Source: a virus
IMG/VR virus record: IMGVR_UViG_3300027754_000292
Span: 1-31,765 of that record
Direction: 5' to 3' (one strand)
Length of the DNA stretch: 31,765 nucleotides
Every line of letters starts with the position of its first letter. Position 1 is the stretch's first letter. The notes under the pieces were generated by a model, which made no database searches, was not told where the DNA came from, and saw only the letters and a program-made list of their open reading frames with translations. A program made the translations under genes and the position numbers. Positions 1-26,388 of this stretch are shown here, in pieces.

Positions 1-1419
1 CAGGTAGCTGCGAAGACTGTAGGTTTTGATATCGTTCCTGTTATCCCTATGTCAGGTCCAACTGGTATTCTGTCTTACTTAGACTACGTATACGCAGGTG
101 GTAAAGTAGGTGCTGCTGCTGCTAGTTCAGCTGCTGATCAGTTAGCTACTGCTCCTTCAATGATTAAATTCCCAGTTTACCAAATTGCTTCAGGTATCCC
201 TGGTGCTACTGGTGCTACTGGTGCTAATGCTACAACTTTCACAGTAGGTGCTACAGCTTCTATAAACACCACTTTACTTTTAACTTTCGTAGGTCTATCA
301 AGAATTGATGGTTTCCCTATCTTCCAAATCACAGGTATTGCATCAGGTACTCCCGTTGCTACTTATTTCAACGGTACTCCTTATCAAGTAGTTACTGGAG
401 CTGGTGGATCAGGATTCTACACTCAAAACTCAGCTGGAACTGCACAATTAGTTAAAGCTTTAGAAGATCACATCCAAGGTTATTCTGGTGCTGGTTTCAA
501 CAACGACCAAGCTTACCAAGGTCCTTACGTTGATGGTACTAAAACTTACAACCCAATGTTAAGAGGTGTTGGAGAATCTACTTACTACAACTCAATGGGT
601 CTTTCGACTTTCACTAAGTTCGTAGAAGCTGAAACTTTCCAAGTTGCTGCTTCAGTTACAACTGAGCAAATTCAGGATCTTAACAAACAATTCGGTATCG
701 ATGTTATTTCAATGATCGAGAACGCATTGGTTAATGAGGTTTCTCAAGCAATCAACAAACACATCCTTTCAAGATCATTTGCTTTAGGATGGTCTAACCA
801 CGTACAATTCTTAAGCGTAGAAAACCAAAACCTTAACCTTAACTTAGTTATTGGTGGTGGTGCTGGAACTACAGCTGCTTACGTTAAGAAAGACGACACT
901 ACATCTACAATGGTAATCCCTGCAGGTCCTGCATCAGGAGGATATGAGAACTTATCAACTTTACAAAGAAGATTATTCTCAAGAATTCTTGCAGCTGGTA
1001 ACGTGGTAGCTAACAGAGGTAGAAGAGGTCCTGCTAACTTCATCGTTACAAACGCTGCAGTTGCAAGTGCACTTCAAGATATCTCTCAATTCACTTTCGC
1101 ACCATTCTCTAACACTTTAACTCAAAACAATGGTACTTTATACCCTGTAGGTTCGCTTGCTGGTATGACTGTATATGTTGATCAAAACATGAGCTACAGT
1201 GATACAAGAGTATTAGTTGGAAGAAAAGGTGGAGACGATGAACCAGGTATCAAATTTATGCCTTACATGATGGCAGAGTCTATTCAGACTATCTCTGAAG
1301 GAACAATGTCACCTAAGATCGCAGTTAAATCTAGATACGCATTAGTTGAAGCTGGTATGTTACCTGAAACTATGTACTTAACATTCTTTGTTAACGTACC
1401 TGCTGGTGGTTTAGCATAA
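1..1419 (+). CDS. Major capsid protein, gp23-like (5' end missing)
   Basis: The reading frame is open from base 1, so the gene starts upstream. The ATG at 49 is an internal Met inside the conserved VIPMSGPTG segment, which matches the gp23 family motif around 'MTGPTG'. After an Ala/Gly/Thr-rich insertion (about bases 110-480) the fold resumes with FTKFVEAETFQVAASVTTEQ and QDLNKQFGIDVISMIENAL, which parallel the T4 gp23 segment in which the subunit helix is followed by 'AELSNILSTEV'. The C-terminal part (VLVGRKG, PGIKFMPYMM, MSPKIAVKSRYALV) matches the gp23 ending 'QPKIGFKTRYGM'. It forms the hexameric head lattice. In T4 the N-terminus is removed by the prohead protease; that part is outside this window. 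Codon use (GGT, GCT, ACT, AAC, TTC) is visibly more biased than in neighbouring genes, as expected for the most abundant virion protein. A terminator follows 18 bases after the stop. Confidence 0.93.
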   Translation, partial: QVAAKTVGFDIVPVIPMSGPTGILSYLDYVYAGGKVGAAAASSAADQLATAPSMIKFPVYQIASGIPGATGATGANATTFTVGATASINTTLLLTFVGLSRIDGFPIFQITGIASGTPVATYFNGTPYQVVTGAGGSGFYTQNSAGTAQLVKALEDHIQGYSGAGFNNDQAYQGPYVDGTKTYNPMLRGVGESTYYNSMGLSTFTKFVEAETFQVAASVTTEQIQDLNKQFGIDVISMIENALVNEVSQAINKHILSRSFALGWSNHVQFLSVENQNLNLNLVIGGGAGTTAAYVKKDDTTSTMVIPAGPASGGYENLSTLQRRLFSRILAAGNVVANRGRRGPANFIVTNAAVASALQDISQFTFAPFSNTLTQNNGTLYPVGSLAGMTVYVDQNMSYSDTRVLVGRKGGDDEPGIKFMPYMMAESIQTISEGTMSPKIAVKSRYALVEAGMLPETMYLTFFVNVPAGGLA

Positions 1420-1498: not shown

Positions 1499-1510
1499 TT
1501 GGATATATAC
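1499..1510 (+). promoter_or_regulatory. Candidate phage late promoter element
   Basis: The sequence TTGGATATATAC lies between the capsid terminator and the ATG at 1536. The same core, GGATATATA, recurs upstream of the genes at 8521, 10414 and 22920. Its position at the head of transcription units suggests a promoter read by a phage-modified polymerase, comparable in role to the T4 late box TATAAATA. No -35 element is obvious. Confidence 0.6.
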
Positions 1511-1535: not shown

Positions 1536-2684
1536 ATGAAGAATCTACCATCTTTTAATGATTTTAAAAAATACGAGTCTCTGATAGAAACTGTAGACCG
1601 TGAACTTAGTGAGGAGTTTGCTTCCCTAGAAAGATCAGAACCTAATCACACAGTAAACGAAGGCATCTTCGGAGACTACCTTAAAAATTCACTTTCTAAG
1701 TTTTTCTTAGGCTCTTTATCTAGGGTAGGAATGATCGATAAGGCAAGAAAGCTTCTTGTAGATTTAGAAATTGATGCTATCGAGAAAAGAGCAAATTTCG
1801 AAGAAAATATTGAAAAACTAGAATCTGAAATAGATGGTTTGAGTTCAATAAACGACAAGGGAAAAATAAGCTCTGTCGAAAGAGAAAGGGAAGTTAAAAC
1901 AAAAGAGTTTGAAACTTTCATTAAGTCGCATTCACTTAAGATAAAAAAAGCAAAAGATTTCGTCTCTAAGGTTATTGATAATAACACTAGAAGGAGGGAG
2001 TATTACGAGGCAGGAAGAGCAGACGATGAAATTGCATTAGCTGAACTTGAATATAAATTGGCTAGAGATAAAGCTGACGACGTAGACATCAAGAAGTTTC
2101 AGGATAAGATTAATGCTAAAAAGAAAGAAGCAGAAGAGAAAGCTCAGAATCTGAAAGATCAAATGGATAAAAAATCGGAAGAAGAAAAGAAGGATAATGG
2201 ACCCGATACGGAGGACCTTTCCTTAGATTCGGAAAAGGAAAAGAAAAAGGTTGCGGGGAGAAGAGGAAAAGATATCATCGAGAGAAAAAAGGAACTTGAA
2301 AAAGATATTGCTGATTTAAGAGCAAATATCGAGAGAAAGTTAACAGTATTGGAGAAAAGAATAGGTGCTAATCCTGATAAGGTTAGCAAATCTTACATAG
2401 AAAAATCTAAGATTGAATTACTTGAACTTAGCTCAGCTTTGGATTCTAAGAAAAATCTATTAAAATTATTCAGGAATCTAGGCAAAACTGAATCTGATAT
2501 AGATAAGACATTAAGCAAGGAGCAAGAGTTCACAAAGTTAACTAATATGATAAATCAAGGAATAGCTGATGGTGAAGATGCAAACTCAGGAACTAAGAAA
2601 ATAATTTCTGATGTATTCGTTACTCCTTCGGGTAATATTGACGCCAGTAAATTAAGAACTGCAAAAGATAAACTAAACAACTAA
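1536..2684 (+). CDS. Putative internal head protein, coiled coil (paralog of next gene)
   Basis: The 382-aa product is rich in Lys and Glu and is predicted by eye to be mostly coiled coil (about residues 60-330); no enzyme motif is seen. The N-terminus SFNDFKKYESLIE resembles the T4 internal-protein leader MKTYQEFIAE. A second candidate prohead-protease site, VNE|GIF, lies at residues 40-45; cleavage there would release a mature N-terminus GIFGDYLKNSLSKFF. A central block (VIDNNTRRREYYE, about bases 1965-2010) matches VISDNKRVRIYWE in the next gene, so the two look like tandem duplicates. It is the first gene of a four-gene unit between two terminators, directly after the capsid gene. An internal or core head protein is the best guess. 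A scaffold is an alternative, although the T4 scaffold gene lies upstream of gene 23. The role is inferred, not recognised by family. Confidence 0.55.
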   Translation: MKNLPSFNDFKKYESLIETVDRELSEEFASLERSEPNHTVNEGIFGDYLKNSLSKFFLGSLSRVGMIDKARKLLVDLEIDAIEKRANFEENIEKLESEIDGLSSINDKGKISSVEREREVKTKEFETFIKSHSLKIKKAKDFVSKVIDNNTRRREYYEAGRADDEIALAELEYKLARDKADDVDIKKFQDKINAKKKEAEEKAQNLKDQMDKKSEEEKKDNGPDTEDLSLDSEKEKKKVAGRRGKDIIERKKELEKDIADLRANIERKLTVLEKRIGANPDKVSKSYIEKSKIELLELSSALDSKKNLLKLFRNLGKTESDIDKTLSKEQEFTKLTNMINQGIADGEDANSGTKKIISDVFVTPSGNIDASKLRTAKDKLNN

Positions 2685-2686
2685 GT

Positions 2687-3622
2687 ATGACTTTAAAATT
2701 TAAAGAATGGGACAGCTTAAATGAAGCTGGCATATTCGACACTATAAAAAACTGGCTAAGTGGAACTTTTGGTGGAAGTATAGAATCACTAGATAAATTA
2801 GCTAATGAGTACAGATCAGCAGAGCTTGAATATGTTGAAAAATGGGAAGATATTAACGTGGAGATTGATAAGTTAGATCTGGAAAGATCCCAAACCAAAA
2901 GCGATCCTGCAGAGATAAAAAGAATCGATCGTTTGATTCAAAGAAATAATGAGTTAATGGATGCTCAGTCTAGATCTCACGAGAAGAAGACGGAAAGCAT
3001 ATTCACTAAGGTTAGAGATGTCATAAGCGATAATAAAAGAGTTAGAATATATTGGGAAAAGCTTAAAACAAAAGTTGATGCTGATATAGCTGAGGAGATG
3101 TATAAGAGAGCTAAAAACCTAGCAGATTCTTCGCTTTCTGGATCATTATACTCTAAATATAAAGCAGCATTATTAAAAGCTAAGCAGAAAGATATTGACT
3201 TCAGAAATAAGTACGGAAACCTGATGACTAAAGACATTGAAGCAGGGGAGAGATTTAAGGATAAATCAGGATCAACTAAATCAACATCAGGTCCAGATAA
3301 TTATACTAAATCAGGGAATGAAAGCGATGCCTCGTTTGAATTCATAGCTAAACTTCCTTTAGTCGAATTTACAAATGCTATAAAAGAATACGTTCCAGCT
3401 CAAGGAAAAAAACTTGTTTCTTTCCTTTTAAAAGAGAGGAACGACAGATATGTTGCTATGGATATGGAAAGGGACATCCTAAATAAAGAAGTTGAAAATT
3501 CAGCCAGTCCGGATCAAGCAAGAGAACTAGCTTCTAAAAGAATAAAGGAGATTAGAGAGAAGTATATGGATGAGATAAGAGATCTAAGATCTAAAATAAC
3601 AATTGCTAGAAAGTATGCTTAA
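2687..3622 (+). CDS. Putative internal head protein with capsid-targeting leader
   Basis: The 311-aa product starts two bases after the previous stop. Its N-terminus LKFKEWDSLNE|AGIFD has the layout of the T4 capsid-targeting sequence (MKTYQEFIAE|A): an aromatic, an acidic residue and another aromatic, then L-x-E with a small residue after the cut. Cleavage after Glu13 would leave AGIFDTIKNWLSGTF, an amphipathic-looking helix very similar to the mature N-terminus predicted for the upstream paralog. The body is charged and helical (about residues 40-120 and 240-305) with a low-complexity Ser/Gly/Lys linker (about 185-210). No catalytic motif is visible. Packing into the head, and perhaps ejection with the DNA, is inferred from the leader and the location beside the capsid gene. 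Confidence 0.55.
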   Translation: MTLKFKEWDSLNEAGIFDTIKNWLSGTFGGSIESLDKLANEYRSAELEYVEKWEDINVEIDKLDLERSQTKSDPAEIKRIDRLIQRNNELMDAQSRSHEKKTESIFTKVRDVISDNKRVRIYWEKLKTKVDADIAEEMYKRAKNLADSSLSGSLYSKYKAALLKAKQKDIDFRNKYGNLMTKDIEAGERFKDKSGSTKSTSGPDNYTKSGNESDASFEFIAKLPLVEFTNAIKEYVPAQGKKLVSFLLKERNDRYVAMDMERDILNKEVENSASPDQARELASKRIKEIREKYMDEIRDLRSKITIARKYA

Positions 3623-3887
3623 ATATAGAGAATTCGTTATTAACGAGGAAGACAGCGGGGAGACCAAAATACAGGGAATAAAAACAACTCTTTCCCAAAA
3701 ATTTGATGCAATTAAAAATGCTAAGAATTCTAAAAAACCTGGAGATACTGCTTCAGAGATAGCAAGTATAAACCAACAGGCTGGAATATATCAGGAAATA
3801 TCGGTTTTGATGAAAACGCTTTCAGCTGAAATACAAAAGAACAATACGGGTAAGGATGCTGCTGGGCCTAAAGAAAATATATACTAA
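3615..3887 (+). CDS. Small putative internal head protein with capsid-targeting leader
   Basis: I chose the ATG at 3615 rather than the in-frame TTG at 3603, because the ATG gives the leader MLKYREFVINE|EDS. This is almost a residue-for-residue match to the T4 internal-protein leader MKTYQEFIAE|A, with K-Y-x-E-F-[VI] followed by [IL]-x-E. The start overlaps the end of the previous gene by 8 bases, so translation is probably coupled. The mature part would be about 79 residues, polar and helical (Lys, Ser, Ala, Gln), with no recognisable domain. Size and composition are like T4 IPI, IPII and IPIII, which are packed in the head and injected into the host. Function beyond packaging cannot be read from the sequence. 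Confidence 0.6.
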   Translation: MLKYREFVINEEDSGETKIQGIKTTLSQKFDAIKNAKNSKKPGDTASEIASINQQAGIYQEISVLMKTLSAEIQKNNTGKDAAGPKENIY

Positions 3888-3901
3888 AAGATTAATAAAT
3901 T

Positions 3902-6379
3902 ATGAACAATAATCCATATATTCACAATCAGGTAGCTAAACAGCTATTAGAAGGGTATTATAGTAAGCTATTAGAAAATGAACAAGTAGATTCTTTGCTT
4001 GTTAAGGTTTGCGATAATGCTTTGAATGCTTTCAAGATATTAACCTTTGACCTAGCTCCTAAGAGAGATAGAAATCCCGATGTTATTAGACTTAAGCTTT
4101 CTGATGTTGCAAGTTCTAAAACTGTAAAATCTTTAACCGCTAAATTGATCGACTACGCAGACGATAATGATCTAGCAAATTCTAAATATGCTGAAGCTAA
4201 AAGACTGTATCTAGAGAGCTTATATAAATTTGCTGAAGCACTTGATAGGACTTCGGAAATTTCTAAATCTAAAGATGATGTTATATTTAAGCAGTTTAAG
4301 ATGGCTACAACTAAACTTCAGAATTCTATAGACAATATAGCTAAACAAGCAGAAGAAGAAGCTGAAAAGCTAAATGACAGCGAAGGATTTGAATTTGATG
4401 ATATACTAAATGAATCTATTTTCACTGGGTATAAAAGAAGAGTTGATAATCTAAAAAAATTACTTACTAATTTAATAAGTTCTTCTGAGGGTAAAGATCA
4501 AAAATCAGGATACGGAAGGGATTGGAAAAGAACATTTTTAGATCTTGACGAGAAGAGAAAGACTTTAGATAATACAGATGGTGGCGACAAGGATAGAAAA
4601 ATGCTTGAAGAATTAGAAAAGCAAGTTGATAAATTCCAAGAAGAATTTAACAACACTATGATCCAAACAGCAAATAGGTCTTTACAAAAATTAGAGGATG
4701 ATGAAGAAGTTTATACAACATATTCTGATGTTACTAATTTAGTTAGTCAAGCACTAGATCTTATGACTAGAGCAAAGACACAGTATGGAATAGCGGTTAG
4801 GGTTATCAAGGATGAAAATGAGGTTAAAGAAGTAGAAACTGCTAAAGCTATTTTTCCTTTAAAAAGAGGGGATTCAGATTCTGATAAGAAGATAAAAGGA
4901 AGCGGATTAATCTTTGCTATTCAAACTGCACTTTGTGACGGTATAACTTCTGCAGGTAAGCTGATAAAATCTAAAGGAGGTCCTAATGGAAAATATGGCC
5001 CAGCTACAACTTCTGTTATCTCAACTATCCAAAAATTATCAGGTAATAAAAATGCAAGTGGTCAGATAGACCAAGCATTGTTAACTGATATAATTGCTTC
5101 TGATTGGGTTTCAGCTAAGAATAGGAAAGCCATTAATGCAGCTTTGCACATGATAGGAACAAAAATGCATGAGAGCACATCTAATTCAGGATATGTTAAA
5201 AGTATTTCTGAATTATTCTCTAGTGTTAATGAGGGTAAAATCATTATCAACAATTCTGACTTCGAAAAGGAGCTAGCTGTTCAATACAAAGCTCAAGTAG
5301 CAATAGCATCTCCAGAAAAATCATCTGGATCATCTGATGCAAAATCAGCGTCAGGAGTACGGGGATTAGCTAAAAAGCTTAGATCTGAGTATAATATAAA
5401 AGTGGAGTCTGAGGATTTTGTTAAGCAGGACGGATCTCTTAAATCATCCTACAGCACAGAATTTATAAAAGATTGGAATTTAGCTTTAGATAAAGCTAAA
5501 CCAGCGGAAGAATTTTCATACTTTTTTGCTAAAGGTGCAGTTTATAATATCAACCTAGGGTCATCGTCATTAAAAACCCCATGCAACTGGAATAAATGGG
5601 CAGAGACTAGACAGATTAAAACACTAGGTAACGAAGACGCAACGGAATTTCTTAGAAATTATCTTAAAGGCTGGACAACATTTGGTATGATTAGACCCCA
5701 GTTTAGATATGATGGTATAAAACAATTAATTAATAAAAATTCAGATAATGATGATCTAGATCTTTCCGGACCTTTTGAAATGATGGAATCGTCTATCAAG
5801 AATAAAGAAATTCCTTTTATTGATTATGATAATCTTAAGAGCGATATATCTAGAGCTTTCAATATTGCTTTACAAAAAAGTGACAGAAGCCCAGATTTAG
5901 GTAAGGAAGAATTTGTTGCTATCAACAACTTCCTCGTAATGATAGCTAACTGTGTTACCTTCGATGGAAGCAAATTTGTAAGCTGTATAAAATGGATTAA
6001 TGATAATGTTTTAGGATCTTCTACAGCTAAAAGAATATCTAAGGATAGTATATTTGGTCTAACTGAAGATGACTCGGACAGCGGACCTTTATTAACTTAT
6101 GCAGGATCTAAAATCATTGTAGGTGAGTATGATGATATTAAGAAAAGGAAAACAACTTCAAAAAGACAGGTGTCATCTGCACTTGAGGGAATTGGTACAT
6201 TGAGTAACATGAAAGGGTCTGATAGTGGAATAAAAAACATACTAGGTAATAACTGCTATTATATAGCTGCTGACATTTATCCTAGCATAGCAACACACGT
6301 TAAAAGAATGAATTCAACTTCATTCGATGAGATACCCCAGCAATCACCTTTTAAATGCGTCAACATTGACGCAAAATAA
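3902..6379 (+). CDS. Large putative internal or ejection protein with PG-binding-like segment
   Basis: This 825-aa product is not recognised by family. Residues 1-160 are helical and charged. A candidate prohead-protease site, ILNE|SIFTGYKRR, lies at residues 168-180 and resembles the NE|(A)GIF sites of the two upstream paralogs, so the first 171 residues may be a removable propeptide. Residues about 180-300 are again helical. Residues about 350-400 (SKGGPNGKYGPATTSVIS, then Q-x-L and G-Q-I-D) follow the pattern of the peptidoglycan-binding domain PF01471 (G-x-x-G-x-x-T-x-x-A-V-x-x-F-Q...G-x-x-D). The C-terminal 400 residues show no motif I know. It ends the four-gene unit and is followed at once by a terminator. 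A head-packaged protein that meets the cell wall on ejection is a plausible inference. A large structural head protein is the alternative. Confidence 0.45.
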   Translation: MNNNPYIHNQVAKQLLEGYYSKLLENEQVDSLLVKVCDNALNAFKILTFDLAPKRDRNPDVIRLKLSDVASSKTVKSLTAKLIDYADDNDLANSKYAEAKRLYLESLYKFAEALDRTSEISKSKDDVIFKQFKMATTKLQNSIDNIAKQAEEEAEKLNDSEGFEFDDILNESIFTGYKRRVDNLKKLLTNLISSSEGKDQKSGYGRDWKRTFLDLDEKRKTLDNTDGGDKDRKMLEELEKQVDKFQEEFNNTMIQTANRSLQKLEDDEEVYTTYSDVTNLVSQALDLMTRAKTQYGIAVRVIKDENEVKEVETAKAIFPLKRGDSDSDKKIKGSGLIFAIQTALCDGITSAGKLIKSKGGPNGKYGPATTSVISTIQKLSGNKNASGQIDQALLTDIIASDWVSAKNRKAINAALHMIGTKMHESTSNSGYVKSISELFSSVNEGKIIINNSDFEKELAVQYKAQVAIASPEKSSGSSDAKSASGVRGLAKKLRSEYNIKVESEDFVKQDGSLKSSYSTEFIKDWNLALDKAKPAEEFSYFFAKGAVYNINLGSSSLKTPCNWNKWAETRQIKTLGNEDATEFLRNYLKGWTTFGMIRPQFRYDGIKQLINKNSDNDDLDLSGPFEMMESSIKNKEIPFIDYDNLKSDISRAFNIALQKSDRSPDLGKEEFVAINNFLVMIANCVTFDGSKFVSCIKWINDNVLGSSTAKRISKDSIFGLTEDDSDSGPLLTYAGSKIIVGEYDDIKKRKTTSKRQVSSALEGIGTLSNMKGSDSGIKNILGNNCYYIAADIYPSIATHVKRMNSTSFDEIPQQSPFKCVNIDAK

Positions 6380-6382
6380 ATA

Positions 6383-6412
6383 AAACCCCGATTTTAATAA
6401 AGATCGGGGTTT
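6383..6412 (+). terminator. Rho-independent terminator after the 825-aa gene
   Basis: The arms AAACCCCGAT and ATCGGGGTTT are separated by an A/T loop of about nine bases and followed by further T. It closes the four-gene internal-protein unit. Confidence 0.85.
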
Positions 6413-6438
6413 TTCGTGCTTTCCCCGTACTAATTTAT

Positions 6439-6446
6439 TATATTTG
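6439..6446 (+). promoter_or_regulatory. Candidate host-type -7 promoter box
   Basis: TATATTTG fits the Bacteroidota sigma-factor -7 consensus TAnnTTTG and lies just after the terminator. The expected TTTG-like -33 element about 19 bases upstream is poor (TTTTCG). Initiation a few bases downstream would place the TTG at 6444 inside the promoter and favour a later start for the kinase gene. It differs from the GGATATATA element used elsewhere in the window. Confidence 0.35.
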
Positions 6447-6464
6447 CTAGGTGGAACATGTGCG

Positions 6465-7049
6465 ATGTTCCTCCATAAAAAGAAATATATGGTATACGTA
6501 TTCGAAGGCCCAAGAAATTCAGGCAAGACATTTTTATCTGAATATATCTCAGAATCTTTTAGCATCCCAAGATTTCAGTTTAAGTTTGCCAATTTCTTTG
6601 CCGACTTAAATCTAAAAAGTGAGGATAGCAAAGAAGCACATGCATTTTCATTAGGTAAAGAGTTTATGCTTATGCAGTTAGCAAAGGACATCCCCGGGGA
6701 ATCATTCATACATGATAGAGGAATATTAACTGTCTTAGTGTGGGGATTGCTTGAGGGTAGAATAACAGAAGACGAAGCTAGGGATCAAATAGGGATAGTT
6801 AAGAAATACTCACTTCTTGACGAGATAACTATAATCTATATAAATGGTGAAAATCCAGATAAGTCCGATAGAAGCAAAGATCAGTGGGATCACATTGATG
6901 GAGATACAAGAGAAAGAGACACTTACGAGAAAGTAATATCTATGTTTCAGGAAGCTGGACTTCATAAAATATGGACAATTACAAATAAATTTGACGATCA
7001 ATCAGTGAGCAATATTAGTTCAATGTTTGAGGATATACTTTTTAATTAA
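6465..7049 (+). CDS. P-loop (deoxy)nucleotide kinase-like protein
   Basis: The frame extends upstream to a TTG at 6444, but that codon is inside a likely promoter box, so I use the ATG at 6465. The ATG at 6489 is equally possible and begins right at the fold (MVYVFEGPRNSGKT). Walker A is GPRNSGKT. A HDRG motif (FIHDRG) corresponds to the DR[YG] substrate-binding motif of thymidylate and deoxynucleoside kinases. An Arg-rich stretch (DRSKDQWDH, then DTRERDTYEKV) is the expected lid. At about 187-195 aa it has the usual size of a small nucleoside monophosphate kinase. It probably phosphorylates a nucleotide for phage DNA synthesis, but the exact substrate cannot be told. Six bases separate it from the asparagine synthetase gene, so the two form an operon. 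Confidence 0.6.
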   Translation: MFLHKKKYMVYVFEGPRNSGKTFLSEYISESFSIPRFQFKFANFFADLNLKSEDSKEAHAFSLGKEFMLMQLAKDIPGESFIHDRGILTVLVWGLLEGRITEDEARDQIGIVKKYSLLDEITIIYINGENPDKSDRSKDQWDHIDGDTRERDTYEKVISMFQEAGLHKIWTITNKFDDQSVSNISSMFEDILFN

Positions 7050-7055
7050 AAAAAC

Positions 7056-8462
7056 ATGTGCGGAATATTATTAACAACTAGAGCGGATAAACATCCTGAA
7101 ATTTTAGATACGATAAAACATAGGGGAATTGAAAGATCTGTAGAGGAACTTGATAAGATTACATTATGTCATCATAGATTGCCTATACAAACATCCGATG
7201 GTGACGAATGGAATCAGCCAAGAGAAGTTTCTCCCGGTGTGTATTTGATGTTCAATGGGGAAATATTTAATTATGACAGGAATACATTTTCTTCTGATAC
7301 GGAATATTTATGCAGTTTATTCAGCGGATATAAAGGGGGAAATCTAGAATTCTTTGCTGCTGCATATTTACCCCATATACAAACATGGGATGGATTTTGG
7401 GCGGTAGTAATATACGATTCTAATAAAGGAAGTGTAATCGCATTTACTGATCCATTGGGAAAGAAATGCCTTTATAAGAATGATCTTGGTGAGATTTGTT
7501 CGGAGATCAAGGGTCTTACCACTGTATTGGATGAGCTAGACGAAACCTATATAAGTGCTATCAGAAAATGGGGTTACAATAAGGACAACAGAACACCGAT
7601 TAAATCGATTAAAAGGATTCTACCTAATACGTTTTATTTTTATAATATAGCGTCTCCTCTATTTGAACAAACATATGGTCCTTATTACAGAACATGGGAA
7701 TCACCAATATCCGAACTAGAAGGTGCAGATTACGAGACACACATGAGTTGGCTGTGGGATAAGATGTTTGAGAGCGTAAAAAATAGACTTGTCTCTAAGA
7801 ACTACCCAATATCACTTTTGGTATCAGGGGGTCTTGATTCTTCGATTATAGCAGGGGTACTAAAAGAAATGAATGCCAAGGTTACGTGGTTTACTATAGA
7901 GAATGGGGAAACACCGTTTGTAAACGATTTAAGCGCACATTTAAGCACTTCTGTCAATTTTCTAGACTATAGTATGGATTCAAGTAAGAATGCTCTTATA
8001 TACACGCTATGGAATGAAACACCGGTGGATTTAGGATCAGTGATCCCGCAGTATCATTTATTTGAGGCAGTTAAGAAAGAATCTGGTTATAGAATAGTTT
8101 TAAGTGGTGATGGATCTGATGAGCTATTTGGAGGATATTCAAGAATACATGAATATGACTCCCAGCAATCTGATGTATTTGATGAACTGTCTTATTATCA
8201 TTTACCTAGATTGGATAAGATGTCTATGGCTCATACTCTAGAGCTAAGAAGCCCCTTCTTAAACCTTGATATAGTTAGATTTGCTTTACATCTTCCGCTC
8301 GAATGGAGAACTGATAAAAAGATTCTAAAAGACACATTCGGACCAATGCTTCCCGACTCTGTTGTCAATAGGAAGAAAGAGGCATTAAAAAATCCAGAGA
8401 TCAAGGAGGATAAGCTTAAATACAGACAAAAAGCTGTGGATCTTTTTCTGGACAACATATAG
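7056..8462 (+). CDS. asnB: Asparagine synthetase (glutamine-hydrolysing), AsnB family
   Basis: AsnB makes Asn from Asp, ATP and glutamine. The N-terminal class II glutaminase domain is complete: Cys2 after Met1 is the nucleophile, Arg41-Leu42 and Asn67-Gly68-Glu69 (FNGEIFN) bind glutamine, and Asp112 lies in WDG. FTDPLGKKCLY at 130-140 matches the family 'RDPxGxKPLY' turn. The synthetase domain has the ATP pyrophosphatase loop SGGLDSS (257-263), SGDGSDELFGGY (350-361) and LDKMSMAHTLELRSPFL (386-402). Length is 468 aa against about 554 in E. coli AsnB; the shortage is spread over linkers and the C-terminus, and all catalytic motifs remain, so it looks active. A phage-borne auxiliary metabolic gene; it could meet Asn demand during infection. 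Members of this family also amidate other carboxylates, so a modified substrate cannot be excluded. Confidence 0.92.
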   Translation: MCGILLTTRADKHPEILDTIKHRGIERSVEELDKITLCHHRLPIQTSDGDEWNQPREVSPGVYLMFNGEIFNYDRNTFSSDTEYLCSLFSGYKGGNLEFFAAAYLPHIQTWDGFWAVVIYDSNKGSVIAFTDPLGKKCLYKNDLGEICSEIKGLTTVLDELDETYISAIRKWGYNKDNRTPIKSIKRILPNTFYFYNIASPLFEQTYGPYYRTWESPISELEGADYETHMSWLWDKMFESVKNRLVSKNYPISLLVSGGLDSSIIAGVLKEMNAKVTWFTIENGETPFVNDLSAHLSTSVNFLDYSMDSSKNALIYTLWNETPVDLGSVIPQYHLFEAVKKESGYRIVLSGDGSDELFGGYSRIHEYDSQQSDVFDELSYYHLPRLDKMSMAHTLELRSPFLNLDIVRFALHLPLEWRTDKKILKDTFGPMLPDSVVNRKKEALKNPEIKEDKLKYRQKAVDLFLDNI

Positions 8463-8489
8463 CATACCCCTTGGATTAATAATTCTTCT

Positions 8490-8501
8490 GTGGATATATA
8501 G
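8490..8501 (+). promoter_or_regulatory. Candidate phage late promoter element
   Basis: GTGGATATATAG lies in the 58-base gap after asnB and 20 bases before the ATG at 8521. It shares the GGATATATA core with elements at 1501, 10386 and 22879. It would allow the 8521 gene to be expressed late, apart from the kinase and asnB genes. Confidence 0.55.
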
Positions 8502-8520
8502 ATAAAATAAAAGAATATAG

Positions 8521-9183
8521 ATGTCTAGAATTATTAAAAATTTTGATTCATTTTCGGATGGAGAAACAAACGAATCATTCCAGTTTAGCGATTTAGGCGG
8601 ATTCTTTAATGGCTTACTTGGATTTGCCGGAGAGGGTCTAAGAAAAACTATAAAGCAAAAGGTTGCTGCTAAGTTAATGGAACAGATTGGTGTTGAAGAA
8701 AACTCCAATATGTCCGTTATAGTACAGGAAGTTGTAGATCAGATTCCGATTGAGGATTACCCTGAATTATTAACAGGGGAAAAAGCTAACGTTGATTATC
8801 TTGCTCCGCTAATGGCAAAAGCTTTACAAGAGTTTATACAAAGAAAAGGTTTGGATAGTTTAGCTACCCAAATGGGTATAAAACCTACCGGATGGCTTTA
8901 CTCAACATTGAGAGAAGGATTACAATCAGAAAAAGGAAAAGCTATAATTGAGAACGCATTAATAGAAGCATTCGGAGGACCAGGAGCAAAAGGATCTGTC
9001 GGAAGAGATGCTTTAGCATCACTAAGTGATACCGACAAAAATCAGCTTTCTAGTATTGCAAGAGATAAGGCATCACAATTCTACGGAAACCCTAGCTCTG
9101 CATCACAATCGAATTCTGATAAAGGAGCAATGGATTATCTTTCAACTTTCTGGAATTCTTTGACTGGAAAAAAAGAAGCTTAA
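8521..9183 (+). CDS. Putative head-packaged protein with capsid-targeting-like N-terminus
   Basis: The 220-aa product is not recognised by family. Its N-terminus IIKNFDSFSDGETNE|SFQF repeats the aromatic-acidic-aromatic then NE layout of the putative capsid-targeting leaders at 2687, 3615 and 10859; the predicted cut is after Glu18. What follows (FSDLGGFFNGLLGFAGEGL) is Gly/Phe-rich and amphipathic, and the rest is helical with a Gly/Ser-rich C-terminal third (about 150-205). It has its own late-promoter-like element and is followed 17 bases later by a second small gene. Delivery into the capsid is an inference from the leader; no enzymatic motif is visible. Confidence 0.5.
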   Translation: MSRIIKNFDSFSDGETNESFQFSDLGGFFNGLLGFAGEGLRKTIKQKVAAKLMEQIGVEENSNMSVIVQEVVDQIPIEDYPELLTGEKANVDYLAPLMAKALQEFIQRKGLDSLATQMGIKPTGWLYSTLREGLQSEKGKAIIENALIEAFGGPGAKGSVGRDALASLSDTDKNQLSSIARDKASQFYGNPSSASQSNSDKGAMDYLSTFWNSLTGKKEA

Positions 9184-9200
9184 TATTAAAAACTAAAAAC

Positions 9201-9545
9201 ATGAATATACAAAACGTAACACAAAGGGAAATCTTAGATTTTAAGAAGTTTCTTTCAAAAGTGCATGATAACACATACAAACCTCTTTCTGGTGAAAATC
9301 AGACAGGCGAGATATCTTCAAAATCAGGACAATCCAAAATAAAAAGAGAACCAGCATACGATTATGCAGGATATGCAGATGCAGTTTTTGCTAAGCAATC
9401 TAAAATAGATTCACCTGGTTATAGAATAGATCTCAACGGGAAACCCGGTATGATGGATGTAGCAGGATTTGGTAATATTGCTAATATGGATACTAATGAG
9501 TCTTTAGATAACAATTCTTTTATTAAAAGACTAAATAATTTTTAA
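9201..9545 (+). CDS. Small hypothetical protein
   Basis: The 114-aa polar protein belongs to no family I recognise. The N-terminus REILDFKKFLSKVHD has an aromatic-charged-aromatic pattern loosely like the putative packaging leaders, but there is no clear [IL]-x-E site directly after it (a weaker candidate is LSGE at about residue 32). The middle is Ser/Lys-rich and probably disordered, and the C-terminus has Gly/Met/Asn-rich segments. The ATG sits behind an A-rich leader (AACTAAAAACATG) typical of this genome. A bidirectional terminator follows 18 bases after the stop, so it is the last gene of its unit. Confidence 0.45.
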   Translation: MNIQNVTQREILDFKKFLSKVHDNTYKPLSGENQTGEISSKSGQSKIKREPAYDYAGYADAVFAKQSKIDSPGYRIDLNGKPGMMDVAGFGNIANMDTNESLDNNSFIKRLNNF

Positions 9546-9563
9546 AAAGAATAACTCTATAAT

Positions 9564-9587
9564 AAAAAGAGCCAATAGGCTCTTTTT
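9564..9587. terminator. Bidirectional terminator between convergent genes
   Basis: The arms AAAAAGAGCC and GGCTCTTTTT flank a four-base loop (AATA). The outer A run on the left arm and T run on the right arm make it a good terminator on both strands, fitting its place between the plus-strand gene ending at 9545 and the minus-strand gene ending at 9597. Confidence 0.87.
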
Positions 9588-9596
9588 TTGTGATCT

Positions 9597-10325
9597 TTAT
9601 ATCCCTATATGTTCTATGAATTTCTCTTTAGCTAACTTATAGATCTCTGATGTTTCTTCAAAGTTCTCGTATATTTCAACAACATAGAATTTAGGCGAGT
9701 ATTTATTATCTGTGTTTATTTCATTTAGTATCTCATGGTAGATATACTCATAGTTCAATGAGAAGAATGAATTTTTTAGGTGTATTTTTTTTAAAATTGA
9801 AACCTCCTTTTCTCCATCTGGCGTTTCCATTCTAACGTTTGATTTAAAGAAATAATTAAGTAGTTTATCTGTTACCATATTTCTGATAATAACTATCCCT
9901 GAATTTACTAGATTATCCGCGTCATCAAATTTTGATTGAATTCTAAATATTTTTATTTTAGATTCTTCTTCTTTTAAAATGTCCAGACATATCTCCGAAT
10001 AATCATATAATGTATCCAGTGAGTCTTCTATTATAATATTTAGTGTTTCCCTTTGCTCTGGTAGAAGATTAATAAGGACAAAAGAATTGATATATTCTCT
10101 GTCCTCTTTTCCTAGAGACTTCTTGACTGATTCACTAATTATCTTATCCTTTCTAAATTCGTTTAGTATTTTTACAATCCGTGATATTTCTTTCATTATA
10201 GGGTAACAATTTTCCTTGTTTAACCCCTTACTCGTTTCTTTTAAGTAATCTAATAGCACATACTCTTTGTGCTCCGGATCTATAGGCTCTCTAAGGAACC
10301 ATATAGGACTTATGCTCTTTGACAT
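9597..10325 (-). CDS. Hypothetical protein, the only minus-strand gene
   Basis: The 242-aa product is not recognised. It is acidic/basic mixed, helical in the first half (residues about 25-130), then a mixed alpha/beta C-terminal half; no signal peptide or membrane segment is seen. The start ATG at 10325 is followed by SKSISPIWFLREP. Its transcription runs against every other gene in the window. It is bounded by a bidirectional terminator at its 3' end and by divergent promoter-like boxes at its 5' end, so it is a self-contained cassette inside the late region. It might be an early or constitutively expressed accessory gene; nothing in the sequence fixes a function. Confidence 0.6.
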   Translation of the reverse strand: MSKSISPIWFLREPIDPEHKEYVLLDYLKETSKGLNKENCYPIMKEISRIVKILNEFRKDKIISESVKKSLGKEDREYINSFVLINLLPEQRETLNIIIEDSLDTLYDYSEICLDILKEEESKIKIFRIQSKFDDADNLVNSGIVIIRNMVTDKLLNYFFKSNVRMETPDGEKEVSILKKIHLKNSFFSLNYEYIYHEILNEINTDNKYSPKFYVVEIYENFEETSEIYKLAKEKFIEHIGI

Positions 10326-10350
10326 ACCCTTATTATTTAGTTAGTATACT

Positions 10351-10364
10351 TAATTATATATTCC
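10351..10364 (-). promoter_or_regulatory. Candidate promoter for the minus-strand gene
   Basis: On the minus strand the sequence reads GGAATATATAATTA and ends 26 bases before the ATG. It is the late-type core with one extra A, or simply an AT-rich -10 box. It is arranged back to back with the plus-strand element at 10384. Confidence 0.35.
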
Positions 10365-10383
10365 TGCTATTAAAAATAGTAAA

Positions 10384-10395
10384 TTGGATATATAG
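10384..10395 (+). promoter_or_regulatory. Candidate phage late promoter element
   Basis: TTGGATATATAG is nearly identical to the elements at 1499 and 22877 (TTGGATATATAC). It lies 18 bases before the GTG at 10414 and should drive the long tail gene run that follows. Confidence 0.6.
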
Positions 10396-10413
10396 AAGAA
10401 AAATCTAACAAAA

Positions 10414-10854
10414 GTGGGAAGAATTTACGACTATTCTGCATTTAGCTCTTCTAAGAAGGGTAGTTCTAGAGGTGATTACTCATTTGGCACGGAACTAAAA
10501 TATATTGAAATCGATCTTTTTAACAGACCAGAGGAATATAGCGACATTGACGATTCTAAAGCTTTTATTGAATATAGCATTGATCTGATAATTAAAAAAT
10601 CAGGTATTGATGATTTCGTATTTAATATCGATCTAATAGAGCTAGAGTTTAGCGTGGATGATTATCCGAACGAGCATAAACAATTTGATATAGATTTGAT
10701 ACCGGGCAAAACAATAGATTATAGCCAACTTAATGTGGAAAAGCTTGCTAGTGTAATGCCTACTTATCCCAGTAATTTATCCATTGATATGAATAAATCT
10801 ACGGATCCAAAGAATTTTAAAATCACGGTTTCTTTTGGAAACGATAACGTATAA
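10414..10854 (+). CDS. Hypothetical protein, first gene of the tail run
   Basis: The 146-aa acidic protein starts with GTG; no in-frame ATG lies between the promoter-like element and this codon. Residues 1-25 are Ser/Gly-rich (YDYSAFSSSKKGSSRGDYSF). The rest alternates beta-like hydrophobic stretches (YIEIDLF, FVFNIDLIELEFSVDD, FKITVSFGND), which suggests a small beta-sandwich. No family is recognised. It leads the gene run that contains the baseplate genes, so a minor virion or assembly role is possible but unproven. Confidence 0.5.
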   Translation: MGRIYDYSAFSSSKKGSSRGDYSFGTELKYIEIDLFNRPEEYSDIDDSKAFIEYSIDLIIKKSGIDDFVFNIDLIELEFSVDDYPNEHKQFDIDLIPGKTIDYSQLNVEKLASVMPTYPSNLSIDMNKSTDPKNFKITVSFGNDNV

Positions 10855-10858
10855 TAAT

Positions 10859-11776
10859 ATGGTATTAGGATTTAAAGATTTTCAGAAGAATAAAATTAAC
10901 GAGGGTCAATCTTACCAGATCCCGGGGATTAAAGATTCGTGGGACGGTGGTTATATTATATCCGCAATTGATTTAACAGCTGGAGAAAAGGAAGTACCCT
11001 CAGATAAAATAATAATTCCTAAGAAAAATGGAACATCTATAGCTATATGCTATGTCGATTCAGATGGCAAAGAATCTGATCACGTTTGGATACCCAATGA
11101 CGCAATTTCATTTAAAAAAGATGCTGATGGTGCTATAATAGAATTAGACTTAGATCCGAATAAGAAGTGGATATCAAAAGAAGATAACAAATCAAGAATG
11201 GATGACTTTATCGAGGAATTTGCAAATCACTTAGAACATTCAAAAACCACAGGACAAGATAGAATAAAACAAAATGCACAAGACGATGTAGAATTGCTTA
11301 TGGATCTGATAGGTATACCTGGTTCCATAGAATCATTTGAATCCTGCGGTGATTATATTTGGGATGCTACACTAGATAATGGAATGCTTATCGAGATATC
11401 AAAGAGATCTAAAGATGATCTTTTATCTGAATTTAAAATATATCTAAATTCTAGCGATCATCATCCTTGTGTTTATATAAACAACGATTCTCTAAATAAA
11501 AAAACCTCTTTTAAAATTCAAGATATGGGCATAATTACAGTTCCCTGTGGTTTTAGCGATGTAAAAAATCCAGATCCTTATATTAAATATTTAACTAGGA
11601 GAGCAATGGATATACAGAGCAATTCTGATGAGGAGTCTTTACTTAACCACTATAAAAGATCCGTAGATTCAGGATCTCAAGACAGAGAGATGCTAAAAAA
11701 TATAGCTTCATTACTTTCCGAATTCATCGACAAAAGAAAAGTTGAAGAGATCTCTGCAAAAATGCCAGAAGAATAA
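10859..11776 (+). CDS. Putative head-packaged protein with capsid-targeting leader
   Basis: I chose the ATG at 10859, four bases after the previous stop, over the upstream in-frame TTG at 10835, which overlaps the previous gene. This start gives MVLGFKDFQKNKINE|GQSY, matching the T4 internal-protein leader layout (F-K-D-F then I-x-E and a small residue). The predicted cut is after Glu15. The mature part, about 290 aa, begins with a beta-rich region (about 20-110), continues with an acidic helical stretch (about 115-165) and a mixed domain (about 165-250), and ends in a helical tail. No known family or catalytic motif is seen. It is far from the other leader-bearing genes, so it is a good candidate for an injected effector. 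That role is inference. Confidence 0.5.
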   Translation: MVLGFKDFQKNKINEGQSYQIPGIKDSWDGGYIISAIDLTAGEKEVPSDKIIIPKKNGTSIAICYVDSDGKESDHVWIPNDAISFKKDADGAIIELDLDPNKKWISKEDNKSRMDDFIEEFANHLEHSKTTGQDRIKQNAQDDVELLMDLIGIPGSIESFESCGDYIWDATLDNGMLIEISKRSKDDLLSEFKIYLNSSDHHPCVYINNDSLNKKTSFKIQDMGIITVPCGFSDVKNPDPYIKYLTRRAMDIQSNSDEESLLNHYKRSVDSGSQDREMLKNIASLLSEFIDKRKVEEISAKMPEE

Positions 11777-18063: not shown

Positions 18064-20604
18064 ATGTCACTAGGAGCAACAGATAAATTAAGGAGTCTAT
18101 TTTTAAAAGGCTTTAAGCTATCCAAACAAGGAAAGTACGAGGATCCAACATATCTTGGATTTAAAATAGTGATAGATTTCGGTACACTCCCAATAAGAGA
18201 TGACGACGGTCTTCCTCCCAGTCCTCTTTTTAGAGAAACATCATATATTCCTAGTGGATTTAGCTCAGATAATCCTTTCGGCCAACCGCAGTATTCCTAC
18301 AGGACTACACCAAATGGAGCTATCAATTTTTATTCTGCAACATCATATCTAAGAGAAAGGGAGGCACAATTTCCTAGGGGAGGAAAAAGATCAGATATGC
18401 TTATACAGTTTAAAAATAGTTTAACTGACTTACTTAATAATTCACCTTGGTTTTTACAGACAATATCAGGATTAGATCAATTATCTTTGGTATCAAGAAA
18501 GGGATTTGCTGCTGAGTCTGGTAGTGAATTTAACTCACAAAGAACTGCAAGTAAGGCTTTAGAGTTTACCACATTGGAGTCTCTAAATTTGAGAATGAGT
18601 GCTCTTGCAGATCTATATAATCAGGCAACTTTTGACTATGATAATATGAGAGAGTTAGTTCCAAGAAACCTTAGAAAATTTACTATGTATATTTTCGTTT
18701 CTGAAATACGTAATTTTTTCAAGACATCTAGACTTATAGGATCTTCTGCTGCTTTAACTACGATAGACAATTTAACATCGATGCTTGGATCCGGCAATAA
18801 CCCAGGGACAAACATAGGAGATGTTGCGGGTGAACAGAATAGCGAAAATAACGGGGGATCATCAGACACAAATCCTGCAAGCGGATTTAATTCGTTTGTA
18901 GGTAATGTCCTAGATAGGGGTGGAGTAGATAATGATTTGTCTATGTTTAGAAATCAACAAGATCAATCGGGCATAAAGCCGGTTATAGTTTTTGAGTGCA
19001 GAAATTGTGAATTCGATTTCAGCGAGAGCACAGCAATTCCAACTGAGATCAGTGCGGGTTCAGACATAGCAACACCAGTAGGACAGAAATTCAGAATTAT
19101 AGTAGGTAGGGTCAGAATGAGAAACCAATATCCAAATATCAGACAAGACGGTAAGCCGATGATTCTTGGTGATAGTTGGGACGGAGCTAGATCATCGGTT
19201 CAGAGAAATCCTAGTAATTTAGGTAGTGATATTCTTTCTATGGGGGGTGAGCTATTAACTAACTTTTTAAGTAATTCACTAAATGATCTTATTAACGAAG
19301 GAGTTGCAAGCTTCATAAAACCTAATGTTGCTGGCTTAGACTCACTAGCCCTTGGTAACATATATAGCTTGAATCCTTCCCAGGTATTAGGTAATTTATC
19401 ATTTAACAGTGCTCAGCAATTCTTGGATCAACTAGGTAATGTTAATGCTGGATTCAAAAAGACAGAGCTACCTAATCCACAAACAGCAGGTTTAGGTGGT
19501 CCGCCACAGAGAGTTTATAAAAAAGTATCAGATGACGTATATGGTAAAGTACCGGGTCAAGATTTAGGTGTTAGCAGCGTATCTGGTATTCAAGGTAGGG
19601 TTTACCCTGCACCCGGGGGAGACTCATACACGAGTGTACCCGGACCTGATTTAGGAGTTCCTGATAGAGTTTATACCGCACCAGTGGGTGATGCTTACAA
19701 CGAAGTACCTGGTACAGATTTGGGTGTACCAGGAAGGGTATATCCTGTTCCCACGGGTGACGTCTATGCTACTGTGCCTGGGACTGATTTAGGTGTTCCT
19801 GATAGGGTATATCCTGTTCCCACTGGTGACGTCTATGCTACTGTGCCTGGAGCAGACTTAGGAGTCCCCGATAGGGTATATCCCGCACCTGGCGGGGACG
19901 CGTACACTAGCGTACCTGGAACAGACTTAGGTGTACCAGATAGGGTTTATACTAATCCTGGTGGAGACGTTTATAGTGATGTACCAGGAACTGCTCTAGG
20001 TGTTCCCGATAGGGTTTACACTAATCCAGGTGGAGACGTTTATAGTGATGTACCAGGAACTGCTCTAGGTGTACCCGATAGGGTTTACACTAATCCAGTA
20101 GGTGATGCTTATTCCAACGTTCCCGGATCTGACCTAGGTGTACCCGATAGGGTTTATACTAATCCAGGAGGTGATGCTTATTCCAACGTTCCTGGATCTG
20201 ATCTAGGTGTACCTGATAGAGTTTATCCCCAAATATCAGACGATGTATATCCACCTAATCAAAATCCAATACCACTCACTGAACAAAAGGTTTATCCTGA
20301 TGCTGTAAAAAATTCAAATCAAACAACTATAGAAGCAGGACCTGTTTATGCACAAACACAAAAAATTGCTTCTAATGGGGAACTTAGAGATGCAGTAAAC
20401 ACATTCACTACAAAGCCTAATGCAGTTTACCAAAAATCTGAAACGGAGAGTAGAAAATCAAGGGGAGATATAGGAAAAGCCTATCCGAACACGAGCGGAG
20501 ATTTTATAGTCGAAAACCCTTTAGATATGGGAAATTTAAAATCGAAAGATAAGTATAATATTAGCACAGGTGGGATGAATCCTAGTCCTGAAAAATTTGA
20601 ATAA
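18064..20604 (+). CDS. Baseplate-associated protein with nine 23-residue repeats
   Basis: The 846-aa protein starts with a globular region (residues 1-480) containing DPTYLGFKIVIDFG, NSPWFLQTISGLDQL and KFRIIVGRVRMRNQY; I do not know a named family. From residue 512 to 718 it carries nine contiguous 23-residue units, consensus RVY[PT]xPxGDxYxxVPGxxLGVPD, preceded by a degenerate unit (from residue 483) and followed by shortened ones. The C-terminal 100 residues keep the VY-rich flavour (KVYP, PVYAQ, NAVYQK, KAYPN). Encoded between hub and spike, it is most likely a tail-tip structural protein. The repeats may form an extended or flexible stalk. Pro, Gly and Asp at fixed sites argue against a coiled coil. 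Whether it ends up in the mature virion cannot be told. Confidence 0.6.
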   Translation: MSLGATDKLRSLFLKGFKLSKQGKYEDPTYLGFKIVIDFGTLPIRDDDGLPPSPLFRETSYIPSGFSSDNPFGQPQYSYRTTPNGAINFYSATSYLREREAQFPRGGKRSDMLIQFKNSLTDLLNNSPWFLQTISGLDQLSLVSRKGFAAESGSEFNSQRTASKALEFTTLESLNLRMSALADLYNQATFDYDNMRELVPRNLRKFTMYIFVSEIRNFFKTSRLIGSSAALTTIDNLTSMLGSGNNPGTNIGDVAGEQNSENNGGSSDTNPASGFNSFVGNVLDRGGVDNDLSMFRNQQDQSGIKPVIVFECRNCEFDFSESTAIPTEISAGSDIATPVGQKFRIIVGRVRMRNQYPNIRQDGKPMILGDSWDGARSSVQRNPSNLGSDILSMGGELLTNFLSNSLNDLINEGVASFIKPNVAGLDSLALGNIYSLNPSQVLGNLSFNSAQQFLDQLGNVNAGFKKTELPNPQTAGLGGPPQRVYKKVSDDVYGKVPGQDLGVSSVSGIQGRVYPAPGGDSYTSVPGPDLGVPDRVYTAPVGDAYNEVPGTDLGVPGRVYPVPTGDVYATVPGTDLGVPDRVYPVPTGDVYATVPGADLGVPDRVYPAPGGDAYTSVPGTDLGVPDRVYTNPGGDVYSDVPGTALGVPDRVYTNPGGDVYSDVPGTALGVPDRVYTNPVGDAYSNVPGSDLGVPDRVYTNPGGDAYSNVPGSDLGVPDRVYPQISDDVYPPNQNPIPLTEQKVYPDAVKNSNQTTIEAGPVYAQTQKIASNGELRDAVNTFTTKPNAVYQKSETESRKSRGDIGKAYPNTSGDFIVENPLDMGNLKSKDKYNISTGGMNPSPEKFE
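19597..20217 (+). repeat. Nine in-frame 69-bp tandem repeats
   Basis: Units start at 19597, 19666, 19735, 19804, 19873, 19942, 20011, 20080 and 20149. Each encodes 23 residues starting RVY and ending LGVP[DG]. Neighbouring pairs are the most alike (units 3/4, 6/7 and 8/9; units 6 and 7 encode identical peptides), which shows growth by local duplication. No frame is broken. Confidence 0.93.
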
Positions 20605-26374: not shown

Positions 26375-26388
26375 AGAGATATATAATA
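26375..26388 (+). promoter_or_regulatory. Candidate late promoter element, variant
   Basis: AGAGATATATAATA lies between the terminator and the ATG at 26402. It matches the recurrent element except that the first G of GGATATATA is A. Its place right after a terminator supports the call. Confidence 0.45.

Follow-up and report, generated by a model that had tools for sequence, protein, structure and literature searches.

Do several genes of a T4-related virus share an N-terminal address that takes their products into the phage head? The question arose from the uncultured virus record IMGVR_UViG_3300027754_000292, the 31,765 bases of which are called the window here. The window starts within a gp23-like major capsid gene and carries genes of a T4-related virus, first for the head and later for the tail or baseplate. 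It had been predicted from the sequence of the window that five genes, at 1536, 2687, 3615, 8521 and 10859, begin with a common leader resembling the T4 capsid-targeting sequence (CTS), and that this phage packs their products in its head as candidate injected effectors. The five leaders are present at these genes, above chance, and we conclude that they are very probably T4-type CTSs, cut after Glu by an S77 protease with the cargo left in the head. As far as can be read from sequence, the T4 capsid-targeting system appears to have grown, in uncultured jumbo phages, to tens of tagged genes per genome; packaging and cleavage of the tagged proteins are predicted, and injection into the host would follow by analogy with T4.

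When the capsid part of the window was used to query IMG/VR, 160 relatives were returned and 80 were kept, several of them contigs of 230 to 434 kb. The main work was done on the whole records of six relatives, G001, G007, G012, G009, G008 and G017, with ORFs (open reading frames) taken from mechanical longest-ORF calls. The nearest whole relative is G001 (348 kb), the capsid part of which is 97% identical to that of the window; G008 and G017 are among the contigs that are possibly incomplete. By capsid protein, the closest named phages are a 462-kb uncultured phage (43%) and the Prevotella Lak megaphages (44%), along with Tenacibaculum, Flavobacterium and Sphingomonas phages. The moraphages, described in the available part of PMC12619734 as a large aquatic phage lineage that is predicted to infect Bacteroidota and has a prohead protease in its core gene set, may be related to the window's clade. 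The capsid gene, the five leader genes and their leaders are as follows, with a slash marking the predicted cut.

1..1419, + strand: 3' part of the gp23-like major capsid gene, inside which the contig starts (Pfam Gp23, E value 1.7e-38)
1536..2684, + strand: leader gene 1, 382 residues, paralogue of 2687; orthologues at 70/80 loci
1536..1661, + strand: long leader of 1536 (MKNLPSFNDFKKYESLIE...HTVNE/GIFG), candidate cleavage sites SLIE18 and TVNE42, the latter equivalent to SLNE13 of 2687
2687..3622, + strand: leader gene 2, 311 residues, predicted helical coiled coil (structure model; 26-sequence alignment); orthologues at 67/80 loci
2687..2725, + strand: leader MTLKFKEWDSLNE of 2687, predicted cut after E13 (MTLKFKEWDSLNE/AGIF); F5, W8 and E13 invariant (n=26)
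3615..3887, + strand: leader gene 3, 90 residues from the ATG at 3615 (the longest ORF starts earlier, with TTG at 3603); pattern kept in 24/24 orthologues; orthologues at 29/80 loci
3615..3647, + strand: leader MLKYREFVINE of gene 3, read as MLKYREFVINE/EDSG
8521..9183, + strand: leader gene 4, 220 residues; pattern in 26/45 orthologues
8521..8574, + strand: leader MSRIIKNFDSFSDGETNE of gene 4, read as MSRIIKNFDSFSDGETNE/SFQF
10859..11776, + strand: leader gene 5, 305 residues; pattern in 20/20 orthologues
10859..10903, + strand: leader MVLGFKDFQKNKINE of gene 5, ATG at 10859, read as MVLGFKDFQKNKINE/GQSY

Among distinct orthologues, the leader pattern was kept in 53/55 for 2687, in all of those for 3615 (24/24) and 10859 (20/20), in 34/54 for 1536 and in 26/45 for 8521. 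For neighbouring genes the corresponding numbers were 9/49 (3902), 0/41 (9201) and 0/23 (10414), and interior control windows gave 0–3%. The 26 aligned orthologues of 2687 extend down to 38% identity, and the only invariant columns in their leaders are F5, W8 and E13; the columns of M1 and N12 come close to this, and the length of the linker from W8 to N12 varies. In the alignment for 10859, E15 is invariant in eight sequences. The aromatic pair three residues apart and the hydrophobic-x-Glu processing site of the T4 CTS are thus both found here by sequence. The original prediction had described the common pattern as an aromatic, an acidic residue and another aromatic followed by [ILVT]-N-E. 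The pattern stands, but the acidic residue is common rather than invariant, and the residue third before the cut, generally hydrophobic, is T in 8521. A two-block model, made up of an eight-residue core, a variable gap and a five-residue cleavage block and trained without G001, gave the five leader genes scores of 11.0–19.5. Of 22 other window genes, 20 scored 5.6 or less; 10414 scored 8.7 and 9201 was borderline (11.0).

The five proteins are not all unrelated, as had been supposed, because 1536 and 2687 are paralogues (BLASTP E value 5e-7). The similarity between them starts at the cleavage site, and TVNE42 is therefore the likely mature boundary of 1536. The leader was of low confidence in both structure models. 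In that of 10859, residues 1–19 are the sole segment with a predicted local distance difference test value (pLDDT) below 50 (mean 77, predicted template modelling score (pTM) 0.47, eight sequences), and a PDB fold match at E 0.001 or better was not found. In that of 2687, the first two blocks have pLDDT 42 and 51 and are followed by a helical coiled coil (mean 76, pTM 0.39), with more weak stretches at 150–153 and 181–211. No match at or below 1e-3 was found in Pfam or PHROG for the five genes, and homology of their mature parts to the T4 internal proteins (IPs) was likewise not found, the comparison being through Pfam and PHROG only and not directly with the T4 IPs. We class the five as CTS-bearing proteins, not as IP homologues.

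A gp21-type protease gene upstream of the capsid gene had also been named as something to check for. Since the contig starts within the capsid gene, the window does not reach it, and it was found in the relatives. A Pfam S77 (gp21-type) prohead protease match exceeded the cut-off in 18/18 relatives searched, within open frames of 654 to 681 residues, and at the G001 locus L001 the capsid gene is immediately preceded by the protease gene (7699–9663), which matches PHROG 207 (head maturation protease, E value 2e-37). The length of the frame suggests that protease and scaffold are fused, and the annotation in Tenacibaculum phage PTm1 likewise reads 'prohead core scaffolding protein and protease'. 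The capsid propeptide, which the window lacks, ends in the relatives at a site of the leader type, HYHSLNE/SAGAY, in 75/75 complete N-termini among the 80 loci; at the remaining 5/80 the ORF as called begins further in. Another protein of the window also contains sites of this kind. The 825-residue product of 3902–6379 lacks the aromatic-pair leader but has hydrophobic-x-Glu sites near its start (QLLE/G, KLLE/N), which recur in relatives, and an internal DDILNE/SIFTGYKRR; judged by these sites, it may be another processed head protein.

The available text of a review (PMC9026906) assigns T4 capsid targeting mainly to residues 4 and 7 and processing to residues 8 and 10, and the invariant F5, W8 and E13 of the 2687 orthologues, which come from an alignment that does not depend on the model, fit this. 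The same text gives T4 three IPs plus Alt, and already proposes the leader as a means for T4-like phages to load various proteins into capsids. When a model built from uncultured relatives only was applied to T4, with two padding residues added to fit the short T4 leader, 6/265 ORFs scored at least 12, including all three annotated internal proteins: IPII (17.9), IPIII (17.9), gp61.1 (17.7), Soc (14.3), e.7 (13.7) and IPI (12.0). This recovery bears out the likeness to T4 that was first noticed from the sequence alone. T4 gene 61.1 (18966–19130), annotated as hypothetical, encodes 54 residues that start MKTFKEFIKE, a capsid-targeting-like leader that scores near those of IPII and IPIII.

The two systems share a short N-terminal leader with aromatics three apart, a hydrophobic-x-Glu site, an S77 protease and a capsid propeptide that ends at the same kind of cut site. 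They differ in that T4 has three IPs plus Alt whereas 24 to 68 ORFs per genome score at least 12 in the six relatives. In the clade the leaders are also longer, the linker varies, and the residue in front of the Glu is mostly N or F; the protease frame is 218 residues in T4 but part of a 654–681-residue frame in the relatives.

Use of the leader as a search key for further cargo, as had been suggested, works in the relatives. A simple pattern, aromatic-x(1-2)-aromatic...[h]NE within the first 32 residues, was present in 20/376 ORFs of G001, compared with a mean of 3.5 for interior windows (maximum 8, 200 draws) and 2.9 for shuffles, and in 16/483 in the first 400 kb of G007 (2.5 interior, 3.5 shuffled). 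With the two-block model derived from the five other relatives, 54/421 G001 ORFs scored at least 12, where 2.7 (interior) and 1.3 (shuffle) were expected. A model trained on G001 alone returned 68/609 ORFs in G007, 51/624 in G012, 37/470 in G009, 32/346 in G008 and 24/280 in G017 at this threshold, with 0 to 3.3 expected; the leaders of G007 and G012 mark these two as close relatives, and their two counts are thus not independent. The first model had been trained and read on G001, and overfitting was dealt with by redoing the counts cross-fitted and on ORFs without homologues in the training genomes. Among the latter, 16/122 G001 ORFs passed (0.4 and 0.8 expected). Cross-fitted at a threshold of 11, the six genomes have a leader on 289/2750 ORFs, in 133/1267 homology clusters. 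Models from two separate genome sets are dominated by F/Y and F/Y/W at the two aromatic positions, and neither had a hit at 12 or above in phiKZ (0/349) or Flavobacterium phage MaF61 (0/172). The best homologue of a G001 leader gene has a leader in 103/140 cases (47/70 at <45% identity), that of a non-leader gene in 6/797.

With one leader taken per cluster (n=126), 104 have E at P1 and 106 have L, I, V or F at P3. The residue at P2 is N in 54 clusters and F in 24, whereas 80 have S, A or G at P1'. The P1 and P3 counts are only descriptive because the model itself selects for such residues, and the Glu at the cut site of model hits was withdrawn as evidence, since shuffled sequences that pass the model have it nearly as often (44/58 vs 104/126). 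When 101 of the 116 representatives available for the 133 clusters were aligned, the consensus was MxxIKxFxxFxxxxE. One family that scored as leader-bearing, G017 126811 and relatives, has a weak RNA_ligase match. We took it to be a false positive, although it is still in the counts, and its NEKMDG presumably corresponds to the ligase nucleotidylation motif that it resembles.

The tagged genes of G001 are scattered, with a dense region at 100–140 kb (25/62 ORFs) and none at 240–280 kb or 320–348 kb. Of 111 mainly-leader clusters, 47 were found in one genome, 28 in two and 14 in all six; for the 694 clusters without a leader, the numbers were 316, 160 and 84. A higher turnover of tagged genes was therefore not seen (75/111 and 476/694, respectively, in one or two genomes). 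That the proteins have no recognisable domains held for the five window genes but not for all tagged genes in the relatives, where some match enzyme families. Thirty-four Pfam families matched the 101 representative tagged proteins at 1e-3. The matches found for individual proteins are a RimK-like ATP-grasp protein (G001 202577, E value 2.3e-32), the cluster of which is tagged in 6/6 genomes, a DnaQ-type exonuclease (G007 103412, 3.9e-9), an AAA_5 ATPase (G007 21670, 2.4e-7), a peptidoglycan-binding protein (G001 58551, 5.9e-12) and an OmpA-like protein (G007 206881, 1.1e-7). An adenylate kinase match (3.6e-40, among the best 25 of the 34 families) is probably to the family of G001 217032, judged by its P-loop, and that family is tagged in 6/6 genomes. 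Scanned singly, 11/20 tagged proteins had no Pfam match at 0.01. G007 164039 and G009 277462 looked like ADP-ribosyltransferases by eye, and this was unsupported (0 Pfam families). The largest tagged family (G001 104203, 109490, 111306, 112205, 214194 and relatives) has the leader on 24/28 members in the six genomes, with several paralogues per genome and a WLDKC motif in common; the member scanned had no Pfam match at 1e-3.

Upstream of many leader genes we found a promoter-like word, GATATATA, which in the window occurs at four sites.

1502..1509, + strand: GATATATA upstream of 1536, read directly
8493..8500, + strand: GATATATA upstream of 8521 (word count), also seen for the same gene in G001
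10387..10394, + strand: GATATATA upstream of 10414, the gene just before 10859 (word count)
26378..26385, + strand: GATATATA upstream of 26402 in the tail/baseplate block, also for the same gene in G001 (275234)

In the six genomes, GATATATA lies within 90 nt upstream of 107/137 leader genes that head a unit and of 132/902 such non-leader genes (Fisher p 1e-50), and the counts for inner genes are 41/152 and 49/1460 (Fisher 8e-21). Non-leader here means a score under 8, the class scoring 8–11 being excluded (16/34 of its unit-heading genes have the word). The word was identified by k-mer enrichment in the very genes that were later counted, and a DNA-first count served as the reverse test. Of 77 ORFs that open 11–15 nt after GATATATA, 54 carry a leader (score at least 11) and several others look leader-like. 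Among control words, ATATATAG (20/37 with a leader) and TATATAGA (3/9) overlap the real motif, and six others gave 0 or 1.

Relative to the start codons of the 289 leader genes, the first six bases of GATATATA show two peaks, one at −24 to −34 (83 sites) and another, very sharp, at −12 (36 sites). With GATATA peaking at −12 from the ATG in G001 and the five relatives, leaderless mRNAs would result. Inspection by eye of at least five G001 genes (21233, 104203, 109017, 111306, 119892) places GATATA directly after a terminator-like hairpin with a T run. The gene at 10414–10854, which has a GTG start and GATATATA upstream but no leader, directly precedes 10859. Non-leader genes of G001 with GATATATA (24 of 28 scanned) matched, among the best 25 of 44 families, tail sheath, tail fibres, portal, head protease and virion structural proteins, and also DNA helicase and pyrophosphohydrolase. 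Unit-heading genes of at least 120 residues without the word (75 of 78 scanned) matched, among the best 25 of 151 families, DNA polymerase, ligase, topoisomerase, clamp loader, UvsX and sigma factor, yet also tail fibres, baseplate wedge and minor coat protein. We infer that GATATATA is the late promoter element of the clade, and 'late promoter' goes no further than this because the word precedes a DNA helicase gene and is missing before some tail genes.

Taken together, a pathway of the T4 kind can be proposed. The tagged proteins would be made late, and each would be brought into the head through binding of its aromatic pair, spaced three positions apart, to the growing prohead core. As the head matures, the S77 (gp21-type) protease would cut the [L/I]-x-E site after the Glu, and the capsid protein at SLNE/S. 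The freed cargo would remain beside the DNA in the head and, if T4 is a guide, would pass into the host when the phage infects. It is quite possible, though short of what we would expect, that GATATATA, a capsid address of approximately 15 residues with its protease site, and any cargo together form a cassette delivery code, with approximately 50 injected effectors per phage. The word would then be placed for transcription to start at or near the ATG, with leaderless mRNA from the −12 sites, and genes would turn into injected effectors by gaining the cassette front; their cargo, including RimK-like (ribosome-modifying) proteins, nucleotide kinases and exonucleases, would arrive in the host as infection begins.

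Several observations weigh against tagged delivery into the head. The leader is missing in some orthologues of 1536 and 8521 (kept in 34/54 and 26/45, as above), 37/140 homologues of G001 leader genes fall below the threshold, and the Glu at the cut site is also present in the shuffled sequences that pass the model, as noted above. The model misses T4 gp23 (2.5) and Alt (absent from the hits), both of which are also cut by gp21, and some of its hits look false, such as the RNA-ligase-like family and T4 Soc. The word GATATATA is before the DNA helicase gene and absent before some tail genes. Two phages with the protease lack a clear leader set: Lak-A1 (3/183 ORFs, code 15; 200 of 541 kb sampled) and PTm1 (4 and 3 of 294). 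Protease and leader are therefore not always together, and extension of the system to Lak megaphages is unsupported in the 200 kb sampled. Virion proteomics of the clade was not found in the literature searched. Chance, or the N-terminal composition of AT-rich phage genes, is nonetheless a practically negligible explanation. Each element alone (aromatics, NE) is common, and 'NE' is barely enriched in G001 (61 vs 46–50), but the combined pattern exceeds its expectation many times (54/421 vs 1.3–2.7), interior windows, shuffles, phiKZ and MaF61 all speak against chance composition, and the leader is linked to an upstream DNA word.

That the leader sends proteins elsewhere, uncut, to an infection compartment, the membrane or a replication site, is improbable. 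Cleavage is predicted from sequence only and P1 is not E in 22/126 clusters, but the T4 internal proteins are picked up by the model, the site matches that of the capsid protein in form, its Glu is invariant in 26 (2687) and eight (10859) orthologues, and GATATATA is common to leader genes and virion genes. A more serious alternative accepts the T4-type core-binding tag but has most tagged proteins serve in head assembly only, as degraded or retained core or scaffold, and not be injected. For 1536, 2687 and 3615 much points this way: they lie directly behind the capsid gene and are conserved there in many relatives (some of the 80 loci are short), 2687 is a predicted long coiled coil, and in T4, according to the available text of PMC9026906, IPIII has an effect on head assembly and the core contains gp67 and gp68. 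Because of their conservation behind the capsid gene, we read these three as probable core or internal head proteins, which is most likely what they are, rather than host-specific effectors. As an account of most tagged proteins, however, assembly alone is possible but rather doubtful. The majority of mainly-leader clusters (75/111) are in only one or two of the six genomes, though non-leader clusters are alike in this (476/694), and tagged RimK, adenylate kinase and DnaQ-type exonuclease have no obvious assembly role. Under the T4-type targeting that we favour, 8521 and 10859 are candidates for internal cargo, and tagged genes outside the window, such as those at 100–140 kb in G001, are likelier to be host-directed effectors.

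The aromatic-pair code seems to belong to the window's clade and to T4, and LR756500 also carries it (13/251 ORFs in 200 kb, with 0.8 and 3.7 expected). Sphingomonas phage PAU, a distant relative, resembles the clade in having an S77 protease and a common N-terminal leader with LYE or LNE on many genes. By eye, MK[TSG]xxxLYE... is on 14 PAU ORFs (e.g. 113313, 106051, 112994), and of the leader-bearing ORFs two are annotated 'internal capsid protein' (gp142, gp154) and one 'scaffolding'. N-terminal sequencing reported in Table 1 of PMC5646251, which was available in part, gave a mature PAU capsid protein of 520 of 585 residues, and this start is within one residue of ALME64/N. However, the PAU leader, MKT-x-x-x-LYE..., has no aromatic-x-x-aromatic core, and the models find only 10 and 4 of 288 ORFs.

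The available parts of PMC5694885 and PMC13282480 describe many head proteins of phiKZ, 201phi2-1 and SPN3US that are packaged, cut by the prohead protease and ejected, and these ejection or inner-body proteins are alike in that respect. They differ in their propeptides, which in the same partial texts are mostly long (about 79 to 161 residues in SPN3US, one of 20), and phiKZ is without any leader-model hit at 12 or above. The polyvalent, virion-packaged conflict proteins of PMC5512222, as far as its available text goes, are likewise delivered with phage DNA at the start of infection, but they are multidomain and recognised by their domains whereas the proteins here are mostly small and recognised by their leader; 'capsid targeting' does not occur in the available text of that paper.

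As far as open-access literature shows, the mechanism is already known from T4, and the scale, the clade and the coupling with a promoter-like word are new; no open-access title or abstract reporting this leader family in jumbo phages was found, subscription papers being mostly uncovered. The proteins that giant phages inject are little known, and according to the available part of a 2026 review (PMC13282480) Tad1 is the sole anti-defence protein that has so far been described for jumbo phages. Since this leader can be recognised in sequence, it yields a list of more than 100 candidate families over six genomes, the majority probably lacking a known domain, and these could be tested against the defences and the machinery of the host. 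In addition, the targeting mechanism worked out in T4 is thereby tied to uncultured jumbo phages, and such a tag might be used to load proteins into very large capsids.

Other genes of the window were also of note. Inside the head gene block, 6444–8462 includes a P-loop kinase-like gene (weak AAA_14) and a second gene that is asparagine synthase-like, judging from the start MCGIL... alone. Further on, 18064–20604 encodes a protein with many imperfect repeats of approximately 22 residues that are VPGTDLGVPDRVYTNPGGDVYS-like.

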